Assembly: GCF_003612125.1 (NCBI RefSeq)
Contig: NZ_RAWI01000061.1
Coordinates: 1 to 32,390, forward strand
DNA length: 32,390 nucleotides
Source of the DNA: Corallococcus praedator
Lineage (GTDB): Bacteria > Myxococcota > Myxococcia > Myxococcales > Myxococcaceae
Direction: 5' to 3'
Shown here piece by piece: positions 6,415 through 15,757 of this stretch (its first letter is position 1; each line of letters begins with the position of its first letter). The notes under the pieces are model-generated. The model was not told the origin of the DNA, ran no database searches, and saw only the letters and a program-made list of their open reading frames with translations. The translations under genes were made by a program, and so were the position numbers.

Positions 6415-6441
6415 TCCCCGCGCCAATCCCTTGCGGCTCCC

Positions 6442-6483
6442 GGCCCCTTGTTGCCTCCCAGGCAACAGGGGCCTTCTTGTTTC
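6442..6483 (+). terminator. Intrinsic terminator after the SRPBCC gene
   Basis: GGCCCCTTGTTGCC (6442-6455) pairs with GGCAACAGGGGCC (6461-6473) with one bulged T and a 5-base loop. TTCTTGTTTC follows at 6474-6483. The strong GC stem plus T-rich tail on the plus strand is a classic Rho-independent terminator. Confidence 0.85.
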
Positions 6484-6571
6484 AAGACAATATGTCATTG
6501 CACGACCGGGGGTCGCATCGGGATTCACCCATGGTATTTATCATGCCTCTTCGACACCTCGAGGTCTGGCA

Positions 6572-9022
6572 ATGCCTGTGTTTCATGGAGCCTCCCGGCT
6601 CGCGCTGTGCCTGCTCACGTTCGTCCTTGCCTGCGGTTCCACCGAACCTGACCCAACGCCTGGGGAGGGCGAAGACAACGACAAGGTCGCCGCGCTCACC
6701 CTCTCCCCGAACGGGGCGACGCTGCTGGTGGGTGAATCCCTGACGCTGGCCGCCCAGGCGGTCGACGACACCGGCCAGGTGCTCAAGAACGTCCAGGTGA
6801 CCTGGAGCTCCTACCTGCCGGAGTACGCCACGGTAGCGAACGGCCGGGTGAAGGGCGTGGCCGTCGGCGGCTCGGTCATCACGGCCAAGGCGGGGGCGGT
6901 GAGCGCGACCCTGTCGGTGATCGTGATGCCAACCGACGCGTCCCAGCCTTCGAGCGACGAAGTGCTGGCGTCCGCGCGTGAAGCCGGGCTCATCAACGAC
7001 GAGGAGCTGCTGGCCTACCAGGTGTACGCGGCGTTCAGCGACCCCCGCCTGCCCCTCCAGTACAAGGCCCGGGTCAAACCGGGGTTCGACGTCACCGTCC
7101 TCGAAACGCTGCGCGAGCGCTTCGACAGCCTCTCCGCGCCGATGCAGGAAGAACTCGGAATGTACCTGCTGCGCCCGGATGACCCGGGGAGCTGGCTCAA
7201 CGCGCCCCTGCCCGACGCCCGGCTGAGCAGCATGAAGCGGCCCTCCTGCCGCCCCAGCTCCGCCGGTTGGTACTCCCTGTCGAAGTCCACCGCGAAGGTG
7301 AAGGTCTGGTTCGAGTTCGCCGTCACGGGTCAGCGCGAGCAGGCCCAGCTGCTCGACGAGGCCATCGAGAAGGACATCTGGCCGAAGCTGATGGCGCTGG
7401 GGCTCAAGGCGCCGCTCACCGACGAGGACTACGCCGGCTGCAACGGGGGCAGTTCCCAGCTCGACCTCTACCTGGTCCGCAACATGGGCGGCTACGGGTT
7501 GACCCTCCCGGAAGGTTACGACAACACGCAGGCCCCCACCTACATCCAGCTGTGGGACGGGCTTGACGATGATTCACTCAAGGCCGGGGCGGCGCATGAG
7601 CTGATGCACGCCATCCAGTGGGCCTCCAAGACGAAGGGCCCGCAGAACAGCTACGGGTGGATCCGGGATGCGACCGCGAACTGGGCCATCGACCAGGTGT
7701 ATGGACAGTCGCTGCAACTCGAACAGCAATACGCCGACTGCTTCATGAGCACCCCGGACCTGCACCTGGAGAACCGCACCAAGGGCCACTGCACCGCGCC
7801 GGATGCGGGCGATGCCGAACGCGACTACGGCGCCTACCTGTTCTTCCAATACCTGTCGAAGAAGCACGGCCCGAGCGTCGTGGTGGCGGCGCTGGACAAG
7901 CTGACCACGGAGACCTCCAGCCTCACCGCGGTGGACTCCGCCGTCCCCGGCAAGCTGGAGAAGGTCTGGCCGGAGTTCGCGAAGGTGCTCTGGAACCAGG
8001 CGCCCATCGACACCAAGGCGGAGTCCTTCAAGGCGTGGGACAAGCTCACGGAGAAGGCGAAGTTCAAAGCGCTCAAGGGCGACCTGGCCGGCGCGCCCGA
8101 GCTCAAGGAAGAGCTTGGCACCGAGCTGAACAACCTGGCCAACAGCTACCACCACTTCACCTTCAGCGACCCGAACACGCGCTCCCTGCTGTTCCACAAC
8201 GGGTGGTTCAAGAACATCACCGAGTCGAAGGATCCGGTGAAGGTGCTCGCGCTCTGGAACGACGCGAGCGGGACGTGGCACGAGGAGGACTGGAGCGAAT
8301 ACGAGTACGTGGGCCTCTGCCGCGACATGAAGTCACAGCGGGCGCAGGACCTGATCATCATCACCAGCAACGCGAAGTTCGCGCCCGGCGGCGGCGGGAG
8401 CCTGACGGCGGCGAAGACGCCGTACCTCAAGCGAAGCAACGTGGGCTGCTGGAAGTACAAGGGCACGTCGAAGGCGGTCCTGGTGGGGGCGGGCTGGTCG
8501 GGCCGGGGGAAGATCATCGACGCGAACCTGGAGTACCAGGTGCTGGGGGCCTTCGCGACCGCGGACTATGATCATCCGAACCTCCCGCACACGAAGCGGC
8601 TCGGGGCCTTCATGATCCTGGCGGCCAGCGGGGACTTCACGCTCGATATCGGCTACTCGAGCCATGGCTGCAACTACTCGTTCGGGCCCACGAAGTATTC
8701 GATGGGGCCCACGGGCGGGGCGATGTTGATGAACCCGTTCAATGAATTGAAGTCACCGGATCCCGACACCCAGGAGTGGCTGTCACACCCATCGCGCGCG
8801 TACAGATCGGCGCTCGGCGACGGACGCATCGTGAGCGTCGCCGTCAGTGGCAAGGACTGCCAGGGACCGGAGCTGGATTCCCCCGGGAACATCCTCTTCA
8901 CGGACTCGGGTGAACCCAACGCCACACCTCAGCTCGTGAAGCCGAATGGCGAGCTGTCCGGGACGCTCTCCATGTTGGACACCGTCTTCAGTTGGACGCT
9001 GCAGCCGCAGATCGAACCCTGA
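6572..9022 (+). CDS. Big_2-domain lipoprotein with HExxH metallopeptidase-like domain
   Basis: The ATG at 6572 has GAGG 7 bases upstream and gives an 816-residue lipoprotein (signal to VLAC, Cys21; then an acidic Ser/Thr/Pro spacer). Residues about 41-118 resemble a Big_2 immunoglobulin-like domain (LTLSPNGATLLVGESLTLAAQAVDD...VTWSS..., GRVKGVAVGGSVITA). The central region holds AGAAHELMHAIQ with zinc-binding HELMH at residues 342-346, then WIRDATANWAID at 363-374, where related secreted metallopeptidases usually have W-x-x-E-(G/A)-x-A-x-W. Here the expected Glu ligand is Asp366. Residues beyond about 450 have several Cys and look like extracellular beta-rich domains of unknown type. Likely a surface protease or a catalytically altered relative. 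It ends 12 bp before a perfect hairpin and converges with the propeller gene. Confidence 0.75.
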   Translation: MPVFHGASRLALCLLTFVLACGSTEPDPTPGEGEDNDKVAALTLSPNGATLLVGESLTLAAQAVDDTGQVLKNVQVTWSSYLPEYATVANGRVKGVAVGGSVITAKAGAVSATLSVIVMPTDASQPSSDEVLASAREAGLINDEELLAYQVYAAFSDPRLPLQYKARVKPGFDVTVLETLRERFDSLSAPMQEELGMYLLRPDDPGSWLNAPLPDARLSSMKRPSCRPSSAGWYSLSKSTAKVKVWFEFAVTGQREQAQLLDEAIEKDIWPKLMALGLKAPLTDEDYAGCNGGSSQLDLYLVRNMGGYGLTLPEGYDNTQAPTYIQLWDGLDDDSLKAGAAHELMHAIQWASKTKGPQNSYGWIRDATANWAIDQVYGQSLQLEQQYADCFMSTPDLHLENRTKGHCTAPDAGDAERDYGAYLFFQYLSKKHGPSVVVAALDKLTTETSSLTAVDSAVPGKLEKVWPEFAKVLWNQAPIDTKAESFKAWDKLTEKAKFKALKGDLAGAPELKEELGTELNNLANSYHHFTFSDPNTRSLLFHNGWFKNITESKDPVKVLALWNDASGTWHEEDWSEYEYVGLCRDMKSQRAQDLIIITSNAKFAPGGGGSLTAAKTPYLKRSNVGCWKYKGTSKAVLVGAGWSGRGKIIDANLEYQVLGAFATADYDHPNLPHTKRLGAFMILAASGDFTLDIGYSSHGCNYSFGPTKYSMGPTGGAMLMNPFNELKSPDPDTQEWLSHPSRAYRSALGDGRIVSVAVSGKDCQGPELDSPGNILFTDSGEPNATPQLVKPNGELSGTLSMLDTVFSWTLQPQIEP

Positions 9023-9033
9023 GCCGAAAGGTC

Positions 9034-9060
9034 GCCGCAGGAGCCCCGCGCTCCTGCGGC
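9034..9060. terminator. Perfect 11-bp hairpin between convergent genes
   Basis: GCCGCAGGAGC (9034-9044) and GCTCCTGCGGC (9050-9060) form a perfect stem with a CCCGC loop. It lies exactly between the stops of two converging genes (9022 and 9073) and could act as a bidirectional terminator, although no T-tract follows on either strand. The same 25-bp core recurs at 13995-14019 and, with two changes, at 13253-13277. Confidence 0.6.
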
Positions 9061-9072
9061 CTGGCCGTCCTC

Positions 9073-10734
9073 TCAGGGCTCGGGGACGAAGCGGTAGAGG
9101 GCGCTCTCGATGTCGGACGTCAGGTAGACGGTGCCCGAGCGCCCCACGGCGACGCCCGTGGGCAGGTAGCCCGGCGGGAAGGGATCGCTCTCGGGCAGAC
9201 CGATGCGCAGCTTGCTCGCGATCACCGTCGACCGGCCCGTGGCGGGATCGATGCGCACCAACTGCTTGCGGCCCACCTCGGCGACGAAGAGCCCACCGTC
9301 CGGATGTCGGGCGATGCCCTCGGGGCCCTTGAGGCCCCTGGCCACCGTGCGTTTGGCGCCATCCGACAGCCGCACCCGGGTCACCTTCCCCGAGCGCACC
9401 TCGGTGACGTACACGCCGGGCTCCTTGGCGTCTGTATCGGCCGCGAGCCCCACCGGGCCCTCCAGCCCCTCGGTGAGCACCGTGGTGACCGCGGGCTCGG
9501 CCGTGTCCACTCGCACGAGCCGGCCCGTGGCGCCCTCGGCGAGGATGAGCGTGCCGTCCGCGAGCTCCACCACGCCCTGGACACCGTGGGTGTTGGGCAG
9601 GGTCCGCAGGAGCTTTCCCGTGGCCCGCTCCAGCACCTGCACGCTGCTGTGGCCGCCCAGATAGGATGTGCTGCGCACCACGTGCAGCGCGCTCACGCTC
9701 ACGTTCATGGGGAAGTTCGTCGGGGAGGAGAGCACCCGGTCCGTCTGGTGGATCTTCCCATCCAGGCCGCCCACCTGACGCAGGGCATACACATCCGCCA
9801 CGTAGACCCGCTCGTCCGGATCATCCGGCGCCACGGCGATGCCCGACGGCACGCTCAAGCGCGCCTCGACCAGCACCCGCACCGAGCCATCCGCGGGGTT
9901 GATCACGCGGATGTCGTTGTCGACCATGTTGGACACATACACCTGGTCGTCGGGACCCACGGCCAGGTTGTCGAGTCCGGTGGGCAGCGTCGTGACGACC
10001 TCCTTGTCGCCCGAGGGCAGCCGCACCCGCACCAACTCACCCCGCGCCGCGTCGACCACGTAGAGGTTCTCGCGCCGCGCGTCGAAGTTGACGGCCGTCG
10101 GCATCGCGAACCCCTGGGCCACGGGCTCGATGCCGCCCGTGTCCACGTCGATGCGGGCGATCTGCCCCTTGAGCAGGAGGGGGCCGTAGAGCTTGTCGTC
10201 CGGGCCGAACTCGAAGCCGTTGAGGAAGCCGGGCCCTTGGATGACCTTGCGTGGTGGCTTCCTGCCGTTCGGGTCCACTTCCCACAGCACATCCGCCGCG
10301 CCGAGCTGGGTGGCGTAGAGCCGGCCATCGCCGCGGAAGGCCAGCGAGTTGAGGCCCGGCAGCCCCCGCGCGATGACGCGCGTCTTGCCATCCGGCGTGC
10401 GCCGCATCAGCTGGCCGGTGAAGTAGCCGGTCCAGTAGACCGAGCCGTCGGGTCCCAGGGTGACGTCATCCGCGCCGCCCAGCGGAGGCCCCACCAGGGT
10501 GCTCACCGCGCCCGTCTTCAGGTCGACGGAGTGCACCGTCTGGCCCAACAGGTTGCTGGCCAGCAGGTGGCCCTTGCCGTCGACGACGAGCCCGTGGACG
10601 CCCTGGAAGGGGGAGCCGGCCACCACCACCTCCTGGCGCCAGGCCTTGGGCGGAGCGGCCAGCACCGCGGCCCCGGCCAACACCAGACTGGCGGCCAGGG
10701 ACCTGGAGAGGAATCGGAACATGGGAGCGCTCAT
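9073..10734 (-). CDS. Exported SMP-30/NHL-like beta-propeller protein
   Basis: The ATG at 10734 overlaps the stop of the upstream monooxygenase gene as ATGA, so the two are translationally coupled. The 553-residue product has a signal peptide ([20 protein letters not shown], cut before APPKA). Repeated blades of the SMP-30/gluconolactonase/virginiamycin-lyase-like type follow: [84 protein letters not shown] and [15 protein letters not shown]. The number of blades suggests two consecutive propellers (about 30-300 and 300-553). Pairing with a Baeyer-Villiger-type enzyme suggests, by inference only, lactone or ester handling; metal-binding residues could not be assigned with confidence. The signal peptide means it acts outside the cytoplasm, unlike its partner. 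Confidence 0.75.
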
Positions 10735-12545
10735 GACGGGACCTCCGCCCCGCCGCGCGTGAACTCCAGGCCCACGAGCTCCTCGCCCTTGCGCCACTCG
10801 CGCAGCACGTCGATGAACGCGAGCGTGTCACCGCCGAAGGTGGCGAACTTCATCATCTCCGGGCCCGCCTTCATTCCCTCGTTGTTGTAGTAGCCCGGCG
10901 TGCAGTCGGCCCCGCCAAAGGTGGCGCTTGTCTTGAGCCGGCCGAGGATGACGTCCCACCACTGCTGTTGCGCCTGCTCCGAGGGCTCGGACACCTCGAC
11001 GCCCTGTTGCAGGCACCGCGCGATGATGTGGGCGGCGTGCTGTGATTGCTCATCGAGGATGTGCACGAAGTTGATCGCCCAGCCGCTCTGGGTCGTGGTG
11101 AACAGCATCAGGTTGGGGTAGCCGCGGCTGTGCATGCCGTGCAGCGTGGCCGGGCCCTGGGCCCAGGCATCACGCAGCGACCGGCCGCCCCTCCCGCGGA
11201 TGTCGAAGCCCAGCTTCTGGGTGAACTCTCCCGCCACCTCGAAGCCCGAGGCGTAGATGAGACAGTCGACCGGGTATTCCCTTCCGTTGACCACCACGCC
11301 GGTGGGCGTGATGCGCTCCACGCCCTTTCCCTCGGTGTCGACGAGCTGGACGTTGGGCCGGTTGAACGTCGGCAGGTATTCGTCGTGAAAGCAGGGCCGC
11401 TTGCACATCTGGTTGTAATAGGGCTTGAGCGCCTCGGCCGTCGCGGGATCCTTCACGATGGCGCCCACGCGCGCGCGGATCTCCTCCATCTTGCGGAAGT
11501 CAGACACCTGCGCGAGTTCGGCGGCCTCCTCCGCCGAACGGGCCTGGGTGAGGTCCAGTCCCTGGAAGATGTAGGTCCAACCGTCGTTCACCATGTCGAC
11601 GGGCTGCTGGCGGCCGGAGACGATCGCGGAGAAGTTGCGGATGCGCTCCTGCTGCCAGCCCGGCTGGAGCGACTTCGCCCAGGCTTCGTCCGTCGGCTGG
11701 TTGGCTCGCACGCCGACCCCCGAGGGGGTGCGTTGAAAGACATACAGATGCCGGGCCGTGGCGCCCAGGTGCGGAATGGCCTGCACCGACGTCGCGCCCG
11801 TGCCGATGATACCCACGCGCTTGTCGCCCAGCTTCGTCATGGGGCGCGTCGGGCTGCCCCCCGTGTATGCGTAGTCCCAGCGGCTCGTGTGGAAGCAGTG
11901 GCCCTGGAAGGTCTCGATGCCCGGGATGCCCGGCAGCTTCGCCTTGTGGAGGATGCCGCCCGCGATGATCACGAAGCGTGCCGCGATGAGGTCACCCCGG
12001 TCCGTCGTGATGTTCCAGCGACGGGTGCCCTCGTCCCAGTCCATCGTCCGCACCAGCGTCTGGAACAAGGCGGCCTTGTAGAGGTCGAAGTGCCGTCCGA
12101 TGCGCTGGCAGTGGGCGAAGATCTCCGGCGCCTTGGCGTACTTCTCCTTGGGCATGTAGCCCGTCTCCTCAAGCAGCGGCAGGTAGATGTACGACTCCAC
12201 GTCGCAGGCCGCGCCCGGGTAGCGGTTCCAGTACCAGGTGCCGCCGAAGTCGCTGCCCTTCTCGATGATGCGGAAGGACTCCACCCCCGCCTGACGCAGG
12301 CGAGCGCCGGCCAGCATGCCGCCAAAGCCACCGCCGACGATCAGCACGTCTGTCCGCTCGGTCAGCGCCGGGCGGGTGAAGCCGGGCTCGACGTAGGGGT
12401 CCTTGTCGAAGTCCGCGAAGACGCCCTGGAGCGGGAGGTACTGGGCAGCGCCATCCGCGCGCAGCCGCTTTTCCCGCTCCTGCCGGTACTTCTCCTTCAA
12501 CGCTTCCGGAGAGAAAGACAGCTCGCCCTTCGTCGTCGCAGTCAT
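10731..12545 (-). CDS. Baeyer-Villiger-type flavin monooxygenase
   Basis: The ATG at 12545 gives a 604-residue FAD/NADPH-dependent class B flavoprotein monooxygenase. Residues 69-76 (IVGGGFGG) form the FAD Rossmann motif. Residues 213-224 ([12 protein letters not shown]) match the Baeyer-Villiger fingerprint F-x-G-x-x-x-H-x-x-x-W-(P/D). Residues 245-255 ([11 protein letters not shown]) form the NADPH Rossmann motif. The length and the N-terminal extension before the FAD site resemble cyclohexanone/phenylacetone monooxygenase relatives. These enzymes insert oxygen into ketones to give esters or lactones; the substrate is unknown. It is the first gene of a two-gene operon and divergent from tetR, across a 93-bp gap with palindromic operator-like sites, so it is probably repressed by that regulator. 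No signal peptide. Confidence 0.9.
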
Positions 12546-12580
12546 CCGCGCACTTCCCCTCGGCTGGGCGGCCGCGTACG

Positions 12581-12600
12581 ATATACACGGCCGTGTACAT
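12581..12600. promoter_or_regulatory. Palindromic operator-like site, probable TetR binding site
   Basis: ATATACACGGCCGTGTACAT is a 20-bp palindrome with a perfect 14-bp core (TACACGGCCGTGTA, 12584-12597) and only one mismatched pair outside it. It lies 36-55 bp upstream of the monooxygenase start, in the intergenic region divergent from tetR. Size, symmetry and position fit a TetR-family operator. That this TetR binds here is inferred. Confidence 0.75.
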
Positions 12601-12629
12601 TCCGGATATACCTGAATTCCTGACATAGG

Positions 12630-12643
12630 TAAACAGCCGTGTA
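12630..12643. promoter_or_regulatory. Second, degenerate operator copy over the tetR start
   Basis: TAAACAGCCGTGTA keeps one perfect half-site (CCGTGTA, continuing as CAT like the first site) and 5 of 7 bases of the other half. It spans the GTG start of tetR, 46 bp from the first palindrome. Binding here would block tetR expression, which suggests autoregulation. Confidence 0.55.
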
Positions 12644-13226
12644 CATCCCGCCTCCGCCCGACCCCAGGTCCTCGACGCGTCAACGTGACGCCGAGCGCAC
12701 GCGTGCCACCCTCATTGACGCCGCCCGGACGCTGTTCTCCACGCGTGGCTTCGCCAGCACGGGGGTGCGCGACATCGCGGACCTGGCGGGGGTGAACTCC
12801 TCGCTTGTAGGCCGCTACTTCGGTTCGAAGCAGGGGCTGTACCGGGCGACGCTGGAGCAGGTGCTCGACATCACCCCCTTGTTGCAGGTGGAGCGTCGGC
12901 GCTTCGGTGAGGAGGTGGTGTCGCTCTTCTTCGGCGCGGAGGACGCTCCGGGGCCCCTGGCGATGTTGATCCTCTCGGCGACGGATCCCGAGGCCTACGC
13001 GACGACGGTCGAGCTGCTGCGGGAGAAGGCGCTGGAGCCGCTGGCGCGCTGGCTCGGCCCACCGGATGGCGAGGGGCGCGCGGCCCGGCTCAACATCCTC
13101 TGGAGCGGCTTTCTCATCAGCTGCCGGTTGATGCCCGGCCATCACCTGTCCGCGTCGGGCAACACCTCCACCCGCCGCTGGCTGGAGCAGGCCATCCAGG
13201 CGGTCGTCGACGAAGGCGGGACCTGA
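12639..13226 (+). CDS. TetR-family transcriptional regulator
   Basis: The 195-residue protein has the typical TetR N-terminal DNA-binding domain: [38 protein letters not shown].. with the helix-turn-helix at about residues 38-58 and the [21 protein letters not shown] segment after it. A divergent ligand-binding half follows (about 70-195). The GTG at 12639 is the only good start before the domain; its Shine-Dalgarno sequence is weak and the codon lies inside an operator-like half-site. It is divergent from the monooxygenase operon, the usual layout for a TetR repressor controlling its neighbour. The inducer is probably the enzyme's substrate or product, but this is inference. The stop lies within the first copy of a direct repeat. 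Confidence 0.9.
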
Positions 13227-13286
13227 AGCCTCCGCTGAATGAGGGCAGGTTCCCGCAGGCTCCCCGCGCTCCTGCGGTTGACCACC
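13220..13286. repeat. Direct repeat copy A (about 67 bp) with hairpin
   Basis: This segment matches 13962-14028 at 63 of 67 positions, offset by 742 bp. It starts inside the end of tetR (its TGA stop is in the repeat) and contains CCGCAGG (13253-13259) and CCTGCGG (13271-13277), a weakened form of the hairpin in copy B. The two copies bracket the DUSAM gene. Confidence 0.9.
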
Positions 13287-13332
13287 TTTGAGCGAGCGGC
13301 AACGTCAACGCCGCGCTGTAGGCTCCGTCTCC

Positions 13333-13554
13333 ATGACAACCCCGATAGCCGCCCGCTGTCGGCACCACCTTGCTCCCATCCTCGTGGCCCTCAGTCTGGC
13401 CCGCGCCTTCCTGTGTGGAAGAACCGGTGTCTCCGGTCCTGGAATAACTGCGCGGCCGGTAGACTCTTTGGCCCCTGCACCGATTGCCTGCGCCGCTGCG
13501 AAGGCCAACACGTATGGCCCGCGGATAAGTGCGGGCCGAAGAGGAAGCGCTTGA
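13333..13554 (+). CDS. Possible small ORF upstream of the DUSAM gene
   Basis: An ATG at 13333 opens a 73-codon frame starting MTTPIAARCRHHLAPILVALSLARAFL, which resembles a signal-like N-terminus. Its TGA (13552-13554) shares the A with the ATG of the DUSAM gene (TGATG), which would allow coupled translation. No clear Shine-Dalgarno sequence lies before it and no family is recognised. In the frame of the DUSAM gene the last part of the same stretch reads as a Cys-rich peptide (CTDCLRRCEGQHVWPADKC), so the region could instead be a frameshifted remnant of a small secreted protein. Low confidence that it is expressed. Confidence 0.25.
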   Translation: MTTPIAARCRHHLAPILVALSLARAFLCGRTGVSGPGITARPVDSLAPAPIACAAAKANTYGPRISAGRRGSA

Positions 13555-13928
13555 TGACAACCCAACCCGACTGGGACGCGATACGGGACCTATCGCAGCG
13601 TGTGCTCCGCGAAGGAGCCCCCCTTGTCCTTACAGAGGACACGCGTGCGCTTCTGCACCGCACGGCGGATGAGGTTGCCATCCCTGACGCAACATCCGCA
13701 CTCCAGTCAGATGACGGAGCACTTGCGCTCCTCCGCGAGTGCTCCCACCGCATCTCGGAAGGCTCCAACCGACTCATGGACGCGCTGGACCGGATGTACA
13801 GGCACCAGGACGCGGGCAACTACGAGGACGCTCGCAAGGAAATGCGCGACGTGCTGTCCGTCGAAGTCGTCCCCTACTACCGCGAGGCAGCGCAGGGGCA
13901 GCTTGACGATATGGCCGACACCCCGTGA
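13554..13928 (+). CDS. DUSAM domain protein
   Basis: The ATG at 13554 has GAGGA 9 bases upstream and gives a 124-residue protein. Its sequence (WDAIRDLSQRVLREGAPLVLTEDTRALLHRTADEVAI..., GALALLRECSHRISEGSNRLMDAL, MYRHQDAGNYEDARKEMRDVLSVEVVPYYREAA) fits the DUSAM domain as I remember it, a family described from Myxococcus xanthus paralogues. The domain fills the whole protein. It is predicted to be alpha-helical and soluble, with no signal peptide. Function is unknown for the family. The gene is isolated between two copies of a direct repeat, which suggests it arrived as a cassette between tetR and the peptidase gene. Confidence 0.8.
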   Translation: MTTQPDWDAIRDLSQRVLREGAPLVLTEDTRALLHRTADEVAIPDATSALQSDDGALALLRECSHRISEGSNRLMDALDRMYRHQDAGNYEDARKEMRDVLSVEVVPYYREAAQGQLDDMADTP

Positions 13929-13961
13929 CGACCGGGGCGCGAGGCACCCTCGTGCAACGAT

Positions 13962-14028
13962 GACCTACAGCCTCCGCTGAATGAGGGCAGGTTCCCGCAG
14001 GAGCCCCGCGCTCCTGCGGTTGACCACC
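13962..14028. repeat. Direct repeat copy B (about 67 bp) with perfect hairpin
   Basis: Second copy of the repeat at 13220-13286 (63/67 identical). It holds a perfect 10-bp stem: CCGCAGGAGC (13995-14004) and GCTCCTGCGG (14010-14019) with loop CCCGC. It overlaps the last codons and stop (TAG, 13965-13967) of the minus-strand peptidase gene and lies 33 bp after the DUSAM stop, so it may also serve as a terminator. Confidence 0.9.
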
Positions 14029-15698
14029 CTGCTCCGGGGATCCACCGCCACCCGCCGGACGGTCCACGGCGGGAGCGGCACGGTGGTCTGCACCGTCGCG
14101 GACACGGGCTCCAGTCCGTAGGAGACGGTGACACGCTGACGCTGCTCCGGGGCCTCCCCCTGGAGCTCCAGTTCCACCACACAGGGATACACGGTGCCCG
14201 TTGTCGTCTTCTGCGTCACGGTCAATGACAGCGCATCCTCCTCACGCCACTCCACCTGGAAGAAGGGCCAATCCGGCTCCCCTTCCCCATCCACCCAGGT
14301 CTCGAAGTAGCGCTGGAGACTGACGCCAGACGCACCTTCGAGCGCGGCGCGAAGGTCCTCGATGCTCCGCGCACCCGGCTCGGCCAGGAACGACTGGAGC
14401 GCGGCGAGCACGGGGGCCCGGCCCAGCAGTGACTCCAGTTGCAAGAGGAGGATCATCGGCCCCGAGCCGTAGATGTCATTGACGAAGGAGATGAAGGGCG
14501 GCGCCGGTTCGTCCGCAGGACGCAGGTAATAGGACGTCGTGCGGGCCAGCCGGTCCCAGTACGCGAGCGTGGATGCCGCCTCGCCGTCCCGGTGTTCGTC
14601 CTCATAGACATACGTGAGGTATTCAGCCACCGACTCCTTCCACGGATAGTCCTGGGCGCTGGCCAGGGTGGTCCGGTTGCCGGCCCACTGGTGCACCACC
14701 TCGTGCATCCACGTGTGCAGCGTCATGTTGGCGTAGTCCTTCGGCAACAGCGGCAGGTTGTCGCGCAGGAGGATGTTGGCCGGATGCTCCATGCCCAGCC
14801 ACTCCGTGGGCGCTGACGCCACGCGCAGCTCGCGGCCATACGGAAGCGGACCGAAACGCGCGATCATCCACCTCAAGAAATCCTCCATCACCGCCGCGTC
14901 CAGTGCCGGCCCCAGCAGGCCACCCGGAGCCTCATAGAGCTCCACCAAGGCCACGTCCGAGTCCACCAGCCGCGTGCGCTTCCACGCCGGGAGGGAGGCC
15001 ACCATGAAGGAGGAGTACGTGGGCGCCGGCGTCTCCAGCAGCTCGCAACGTGTATGGGTTTCATCCCGCCGCGACAGGCGTCCGGGGCACAGCACCACCT
15101 CCCCCGACGCATGCTTCACGTCGAACGTAAAGCGCGCGAGCCGCGCGGGCGCGTCATCACATGGGCCAAAGAGGTCGCAGGACTCCAACCACCCCAGCAG
15201 GTACGAGAAGTCTCCGCCGACGACCGGACGGCGGGAGAACCCCACCTGCGTCGACAGGTGCGTGGCTTCCGGGACGACATACTGGCTGTCGAGGAAGAGC
15301 GGCCCTCCTTCGTACCACCCGCAGAGTTCCAGCCTCCCTTCCGCCGTGCGCATGCGCGTGGGAGCCCCGCCCTGCCATCGCACGCCCGTCACCCCCTCCG
15401 GGGCCGGGATGGACAGACACCCTTCGCCCTCATCTTGCTCCTTCACGTCCAGCCACAGCCGGGAGCGGGCCTCCCGCGTCGTGAGGTCGAAGGTGTAGTC
15501 GTAGCGCTCCACCGCGTAGGTCAAAGCCCTCGGAGGAGCGTCCGGAGGAGGAGGGGGTGTGGCAGGCGGCTCCGGCGCTTCGCACCCCAGGCCCAGGACG
15601 ACGACGACGAACAGGAGCGGCGGGACGCGGCACAGCAAGGACAGGGGTTCGGGCACACAACGGATACGGACCCTGCCCCCCGCGCCGGTCACCGCCAT
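13965..15698 (-). CDS. M1-family-like metallopeptidase lipoprotein
   Basis: The protein (577 residues from the ATG at 15698) has a hydrophobic leader ending LFVVVVLGLGC and a Pro-rich spacer, suggesting a lipoprotein with an imperfect lipobox. The catalytic core shows HEVVHQW (His332, Glu333, His336) followed after exactly 18 residues by Glu355, the HExxH-x18-E zinc signature of M1 peptidases. The exopeptidase motif (normally GxMEN) appears as WLGMEHPAN (about 301-308). A beta-rich N-terminal domain with several Cys precedes the core. The start must lie downstream of the terminator at 15700-15730; a GTG at 15656 would give a shorter leader and is equally possible. The last 19 residues ([19 protein letters not shown]) are encoded by repeat copy B and are probably not original to the family. 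Confidence 0.85.
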   Translation of the reverse strand: MAVTGAGGRVRIRCVPEPLSLLCRVPPLLFVVVVLGLGCEAPEPPATPPPPPDAPPRALTYAVERYDYTFDLTTREARSRLWLDVKEQDEGEGCLSIPAPEGVTGVRWQGGAPTRMRTAEGRLELCGWYEGGPLFLDSQYVVPEATHLSTQVGFSRRPVVGGDFSYLLGWLESCDLFGPCDDAPARLARFTFDVKHASGEVVLCPGRLSRRDETHTRCELLETPAPTYSSFMVASLPAWKRTRLVDSDVALVELYEAPGGLLGPALDAAVMEDFLRWMIARFGPLPYGRELRVASAPTEWLGMEHPANILLRDNLPLLPKDYANMTLHTWMHEVVHQWAGNRTTLASAQDYPWKESVAEYLTYVYEDEHRDGEAASTLAYWDRLARTTSYYLRPADEPAPPFISFVNDIYGSGPMILLLQLESLLGRAPVLAALQSFLAEPGARSIEDLRAALEGASGVSLQRYFETWVDGEGEPDWPFFQVEWREEDALSLTVTQKTTTGTVYPCVVELELQGEAPEQRQRVTVSYGLEPVSATVQTTVPLPPWTVRRVAVDPRSRVVNRRSAGLLREPALIQRRL

Positions 15699-15699
15699 G

Positions 15700-15736
15700 A
15701 AAAAAGGGGCGGCCGTCGTCCGGCCGCCCCTCCCCT
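15700..15736 (-). terminator. Intrinsic terminator of the GH3 gene
   Basis: GGGGCGGCCG (15706-15715) and CGGCCGCCCC (15721-15730) form a perfect 10-bp stem with a 5-base loop. On the minus strand the stem is followed by six T (complement of A at 15700-15705). It lies about 28 bp after the GH3 stop, a textbook Rho-independent terminator that closes the glucan locus. Confidence 0.92.
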
Positions 15737-15757
15737 TCACCTCAAACCCTCACCCGC

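Follow-up and report, generated by a model that had tools for sequence, protein, structure and literature searches.

A decayed lipoprotein-DUSAM gene pair in Corallococcus praedator and long target duplications around related units in myxobacteria

Many small lineage-specific genes such as those of the DUSAM family are scattered through myxobacterial genomes, multiplying without a visible mobile element, and it may be asked how they reach new sites. One such gene lies within the stretch of Corallococcus praedator DNA analysed here (32,390 nt of contig NZ_RAWI01000061.1, referred to as the window) between two copies of a direct repeat (Table 1). The initial annotation, made from the letters of the window, took this to be a cassette gained through the repeat, an interpretation that is partly supported by the present work, being right in kind and wrong in detail. 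The explanation that we prefer as a whole, and hold to be somewhat better than an even bet, is that the segment is a decayed two-gene unit which would have been captured at a DNA break, with duplication of its target, and would have encoded an effector and its partner protein. Genomes, contigs and loci are referred to where necessary by our own G, C and L numbers.

A repeat search of the window recovered the 67-nt pair at the coordinates and identity first reported (63/67, 94%), with the same 675-bp unique segment between the copies. Copy A does start inside the end of the tetR-family coding sequence, and copy B encodes the end of the M1 peptidase, as had been noted. In its first 7 positions the repeat is weak: copy A has the stop codon of tetR there and copy B that of the peptidase. 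The clean core is 60 bp with 58/60 positions identical. Local alignment of the two flanks of the DUSAM unit gave a score of 55 against a maximum of 15 in 100 shuffles. It had been suggested that the repeat be sought beside other DUSAM genes. A whole-genome search returned full copies only at the two positions bracketing the window's gene, which rules out its being a dispersed repeat. A 31-bp copy of the hairpin alone, 29/31 identical to copy B, lies at the far end of the block that carries tetR, and the remaining matches in the genome at E ≤ 1 (n = 6) are each 16-26 bp. What has been duplicated is the 3' end of the peptidase gene. The hairpin has a strong fold in copy B (z -3.9); the stem of copy A differs by 2 nt and its folding (z -0.6) is within the range of the shuffles.

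Table 1. Features of the DUSAM locus and its surroundings (window coordinates).
Feature	Position	Strand	Remarks
31-bp third hairpin copy	9029-9059		At the other end of the 4.2-kb block
4.2-kb block	9060-13228		Second insert between gene X and peptidase; beta-propeller/lactonase-like, FMO-like (named by eye) and tetR genes
tetR-family gene	12639-13226	+	End of the 4.2-kb block
Repeat copy A	13220-13286 (core 13227-13286)		Redundant peptidase 3' end without stop codon, directly after tetR stop
Unique segment (inserted unit)	13287-13961 (675 bp)	+	Homology to other DUSAM loci from ~13314 to 13956
Lipoprotein-like gene remnant	13333-13553	+	~166 bp missing near 13400-13407, frame shifted, stop changed to TTG at 13551-13553
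DUSAM gene (DUF2379, 124 aa)	13554-13928	+	Intact; profile matches
Hairpin	13937-13955	+	Follows DUSAM directly, close to where the unit ends
Repeat copy B	13962-14028 (core 13969-14028)		Coding 3' end of the peptidase gene
M1 peptidase gene	13965-15740	-	Its 3' end is the duplicated stretch

The gene in the unique segment is a clear member of the DUSAM family (PF09543 DUF2379/TIGR02267) by both profile libraries, with matches above the curated cut-offs to PF09543 (E = 1.3e-53; 180.9 bits against 21.1) and TIGR02267 (E = 4.7e-46; 156.2 against 60). The genome holds 10 DUF2379 matches at 9 places. Homology of the segment to relatives begins ~240 bp before DUSAM and ends 12-28 bp beyond it, the flanks being otherwise unrelated, and alignment showed that it reaches so far upstream because intact units carry there a lipoprotein-like gene of ~125-150 codons, the stop of which adjoins the DUSAM start. 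The unit or most of it is common to ten other loci with otherwise unrelated flanks, or eight sites, as G004/G011 and G007b/C837 of the window's own genome are orthologous places. The segment is thus a cassette, as proposed, but one of a lipoprotein-like gene and DUSAM and not of DUSAM alone. Intact copies of the partner protein have a hydrophobic start followed by Cys, as in LSLGCA (judged by eye), and a C-terminal part that is typically WK.RC ... C..C.R.CEGQ..WP ... C. This motif is kept in other genera, where 18/29 DUSAM loci have an upstream open reading frame that carries it. The window segment is a decayed copy of this two-gene unit (lipoprotein-like gene, DUSAM, hairpin), the length of the deletion in its first gene having been computed by hand from two matches to G010 and being relative to that genome. 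With the lipoprotein stop codon lost, the frame of the remnant continues through DUSAM, and the two form a single open frame (13239-13928).

The partner matched no Pfam or NCBIfam family above cut-off, and PADLOC gave no assignment for four proteins. The predicted fold of DUSAM is all-helical and confident (pLDDT 94.3), and a Foldseek search with this model gave no match at E ≤ 0.001. A likeness to helix pairs such as TPRs over residues 69-124 (Z up to 9.3) is within the range of unrelated helical models, so that no function is drawn from the fold; the lipoprotein model was unusable (pLDDT 53). In the literature search the names TIGR02267 and DUF2379 did not occur and DUSAM occurred only in rat studies, while TIGR02269 and TIGR02264 do appear.

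The unit resembles the SitA-SitI pairs of myxobacteria: both are small operons in which a lipoprotein-like gene is combined with another gene, and both have many paralogues. SitA toxins carry a lipoprotein signal peptide and depend on TraAB for transfer and killing. According to one report, sitAI loci often lie on mobile elements and SitA families have an N-terminal escort domain of ~375 aa (PMC8546572); such pairs are also treated in PMC12077181 and PMC5562445. The DUSAM partner, only 128-135 aa in five aligned proteins, has no room for such an escort domain and is therefore not filed as SitA. DUSAM lies directly downstream of the lipoprotein-like gene, where a SitA operon has its immunity gene, and its own immunity role is putative. 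This order suggests that the pair may encode an effector and an immunity or partner protein, in the manner of the kin-discrimination pairs of myxobacteria, and that the window DUSAM would be the orphan of such a pair. Gene order together with the decay seen here, in which the first gene is broken and DUSAM is kept, is consistent with DUSAM being the immunity half. What is added to the family as described is the conserved lipoprotein-like partner, so that an orphan domain of unknown function becomes one half of a gene pair, and a mode of insertion in which a long stretch of the target is duplicated.

Bracketing repeats were sought by comparing the two sides of 44 DUSAM genes in loci of the genus (the window included, and L210 kept with just 98 bp downstream) and 29 in other genera. 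Within the genus 8/44 loci were bracketed at E < 1e-9 with identities of 71.95-94.3% (the window, G010, G009, two in G004 and one site common to G002, G005 and G015), and in other genera 7/29. A strict rule (identity at least 80%, 40-400 bp, E < 1e-7) leaves outside the count G015 (72.6%), the second G004 site L204 (71.95%) and L360 (544 bp), and retains 6/44 loci of the genus and 6/29 of other genera. These 12/73 compare with 2/209 ordinary genes taken at even spacing from 400 kb of G009 (Fisher p = 2.5e-6); merging to events (L373 and L375 being one site, and L365 and L366 having the upstream part and the unit in common) gave 9/70 (p = 9e-5), and a looser rule (at least 72%, E < 1e-7) gave 14/73 against 4/209 (p = 2.7e-6), exact odds that should not be leaned on since the DUSAM loci were selected for their similarity or for being best hits, and a single genome supplied the control. 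Both strict control hits are taken as tandem paralogues. Two control genes in L280 have 1,200-bp matches on both sides, taken as tandem copies, and a third has a 74% match ~1 kb away. Of 183 random positions taken in the DUSAM loci of the genus, none reached 72% at E < 1e-7, two giving longer and more diverged matches (391 bp at 68% and 399 bp at 60%). In an earlier control 5/600 random positions scored 20 or more, three of these being DUSAM units of G010 and G009. Bracketing of DUSAM loci is well above background, but 61/73 loci have no strict repeat, which counts against the initial annotation and against the preferred explanation alike. Bracketing at L269 was rejected as an insertion, the matching sequences being neighbouring paralogues by eye.

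The repeats at eight bracketed loci differ in sequence from site to site, which argues for duplication of the target rather than for a mobile repeat carrying DUSAM. Some units, at a minority of sites, are flanked on both sides by ~50-190 bp of target. At three bracketed DUSAM sites other than the window the relatives without the unit carry a single copy of the repeated stretch and the occupied sites two. The G010:C21 unit lies at the end of a glycogen-debranching-type gene (named by eye), and this site is empty in G004 (one copy, 158 bp) and G013 (156 bp). The G002:C25 site is empty in C376 of the window's own genome (94 bp) and in G014 (86 bp), and the G004:C56 site in G001 (80 bp, both flanks joined). 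In the relatives at the first two sites, as in G001, both native flanks adjoin the single copy; two further counterparts of G004:C56, in G003 (80 bp) and G011 (71 bp), have one copy with a single flank matched. Gain by way of a repeat, as the initial annotation supposed, is thus borne out at these three sites in the form of gain with target duplication, the repeat itself being locally derived and not mobile. In such an event one copy of the target would keep the target gene whole while the other would be redundant and decay. At the one site tested (G010) the redundant copy diverges faster: compared with 11 orthologues, the gene-completing copy has 89-97% identity and the redundant copy 78-87%, both being nearest to the same genome. 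A site-specific sequence of ~50-190 bp, present once when the site is empty and twice when it is occupied, is a signature that can be tested elsewhere. Evidence on the other side comes from the unit at G007:C840, which has empty sites in G015, G005 and G002 and no repeat beyond 17 bp. This last site is also an insertion hot spot, with ~3.8 kb of other DNA in the window genome (G000:C659, 36129-39911) and other inserts in G014, G011 and G001.

No such counterpart was found for the window. It had been proposed that removal of the unit and one repeat would leave tetR and the peptidase gene facing each other over a single hairpin. A junction of that kind, with tetR beside the peptidase and one repeat, did not turn up in any genome searched, tetR being itself part of a second insert. 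The peptidase locus was recovered from 10 of 15 other genomes of the genus, and 9060-13981 is absent from it in all ten. Four of these (G012, G002, G005 and G015) have instead gene X, one hairpin region and the peptidase; in G012 and G002 the gene X match and the peptidase match have 27 bp in common where the one ends and the other begins, the hairpin region. In the other six (G003, G001, G006, G009, G008 and G004) gene X is also absent. The 4.2-kb block lies on another contig in G012, at 96.6% identity and with other flanks, and matches with almost identical limits came from 16 genomes of the family besides that of the window, the flanks differing where they were looked at; within the genus it was seen only in the window genome and G012, with about three candidates per genome scored. 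Flanking matches at E < 1e-6 occurred at 3/10 loci of the block, the best being 85% over 74 bp at 0.5-0.9 kb from the block. The two inserts, the DUSAM unit and the tetR block, meet at the same hairpin. Since no tetR-peptidase empty site was found, we infer from the other DUSAM sites that the window's 60-bp repeat arose in the way that theirs did; the window copy is a decayed example without its own empty site among the genomes searched.

An explanation confined to the window is that the peptidase end was duplicated locally in tandem and that the DUSAM unit arrived separately, the bracketing being a coincidence. It would agree with the failure to find a one-copy empty site and with a junction that has taken up the tetR block as well and at which G014 has lost the peptidase. 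We regard it as very improbable, given the same bracketing, with empty-site support, at unrelated DUSAM sites. In G014 the junction left by the loss is near the hairpin after gene X (window 9049 and 15692; L126, 7313-7316).

Identity of the window to G012 is 93-98% over most of its length, falling to 79-91% at 6.5-9.0 and 14-16 kb and to 86-89% at 4.5-5.5 kb, so that part of the tract has probably been exchanged by recombination. A stretch that takes in gene X, the hairpin and the adjoining 187 bp of the gene beyond is found at 93% identity in G052, of another genus (L119, 11607-14431; window 6433-9259). Here gene X is 90-95% identical to that of the window and closer than that of the congener G012, and the shared stretch is taken as a recent transfer. 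The presence of the gene X-hairpin-block junction in G052 as well speaks against an assembly error at that junction; this independent support is limited to it and does not extend to the DUSAM junctions, in an assembly that is a draft of 1491 contigs.

Exchange with other lineages is thus likely here, and this bears on the main rival to capture at a break, namely that incoming DNA already carrying a piece of the target beside the cassette recombined with the chromosome, as a circle by single crossover or as a linear molecule by homology-facilitated illegitimate recombination. Either route can leave a duplicated homologous stretch. One-sided integration has been described in competent bacteria and in E. 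coli (PMC3240628), and transformation is reported to give duplications in a streptococcus (PMC3784515). The donor would however need to hold the cassette beside the same gene already, which moves the question back a step; in G010 the redundant and the functional copy are nearest to the same genome, and the targets vary between sites. We consider this rival unlikely, though to be taken seriously.

The preferred reading, capture at a break, is less certain as a mechanism than the duplications themselves. A fragment bearing the cassette would be captured at a break with widely staggered ends, and these would be filled in before joining, giving a duplication as long as the stagger. In eukaryotes break repair has been reported to insert extra DNA or to duplicate DNA at the break (PMC2671141). 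The literature matched on long target duplications consisted of eukaryotic work, casposons and a Listeria resistance study. Homology-facilitated illegitimate recombination and repair capture likewise integrate DNA without a transposase; the difference here is that the same classes of two-gene cassettes have inserted repeatedly, with 50-190 bp of target doubled. Insertion mediated by repair or recombination is already known, and what is unusual is that the same small-cassette classes are involved again and again.

Integron cassettes and insertion sequences are likewise compact gene units that move between sites. Transposases give short duplications of fixed length, usually 2-14 bp for insertion sequences, and integrases act at a fixed attachment sequence. 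The DUSAM unit has neither integrase nor transposase, no common recombination sequence was seen among its repeats, and the duplications are far longer than those of insertion sequences. It holds only the lipoprotein and DUSAM genes, and inverted matches between its flanks scored 9-14, no more than shuffles. Long, variable and site-specific duplications, together with the filler-like copy described below, fit repair of a staggered break better than a transposase or integrase. A dedicated enzyme might nevertheless act in trans, as a recombinase or by reverse transcription of the two-gene message, and long variable duplications are like those of some retroelements. The limits of the unit lie close to the two genes, the downstream copy beginning within 40 bp of the DUSAM end in 12/15 bracketed loci; a hairpin directly follows DUSAM, and myxobacteria carry retrons. 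This proposal is nonetheless improbable in our view, as the unit contains no enzyme gene, the flanks of 11 units showed no terminal inverted repeats scoring above shuffles, and repeats of the same kind surround cassettes that are unrelated in sequence.

These cassettes belong to DUF5953, another lipoprotein-linked family. In G009 (L286, 14319-16754) a cassette of DUF6310 (with a lipoprotein-like start), DUF5953 and a DMP19-like gene, carrying a terminator-like hairpin, is bracketed by a 67-bp repeat of 88% identity. It is the one bracketed insert at 80% or more in the 400-kb sample that is not a paralogue pair, the weaker repeat pairs examined there being the two at 80% identity or above. Among 40 further DUF5953 loci from six genomes, out of 130 matches counted, three were bracketed (repeats of 99, 133 and 172 bp; p = 0.03 against the 209 control genes, in a comparison that covered more sequence than the control did, both upstream of the gene, with 2,600 bp instead of 1,500 bp, and downstream). 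Judged by eye, two of the three duplicate the 3' end of a gene and one a 5' end. In G014:C10 (L355, 1542-1823 and 3781-4503) the cassette is bracketed by a 172-bp repeat of 98.8% identity, and beside the upstream copy is a 112-bp copy of sequence from ~440 bp downstream, which resembles the templated filler of break repair.

A more specific form of break capture would apply to kin-discrimination-type cassettes: the breaks would be cut, perhaps by the nuclease toxin of a neighbour, and a fragment with the matching cassette would seal the break so that the cell survives, the duplication left behind being as long as the cut is staggered. This is speculative and, as a specific proposal, distinctly improbable. 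If true, it would amount to transposase-free gene mobility selected by the damage itself, and it would explain why such paralogues are many and scattered.

At the bracketed site common to G002, G005 and G015 (L206, L207 and L208) the upstream junctions differ, so that later changes have reworked the site, a point against the preferred explanation. Both G005 copies of the repeat carry one variant and both G002 copies another, which suggests gene conversion between the repeat copies.
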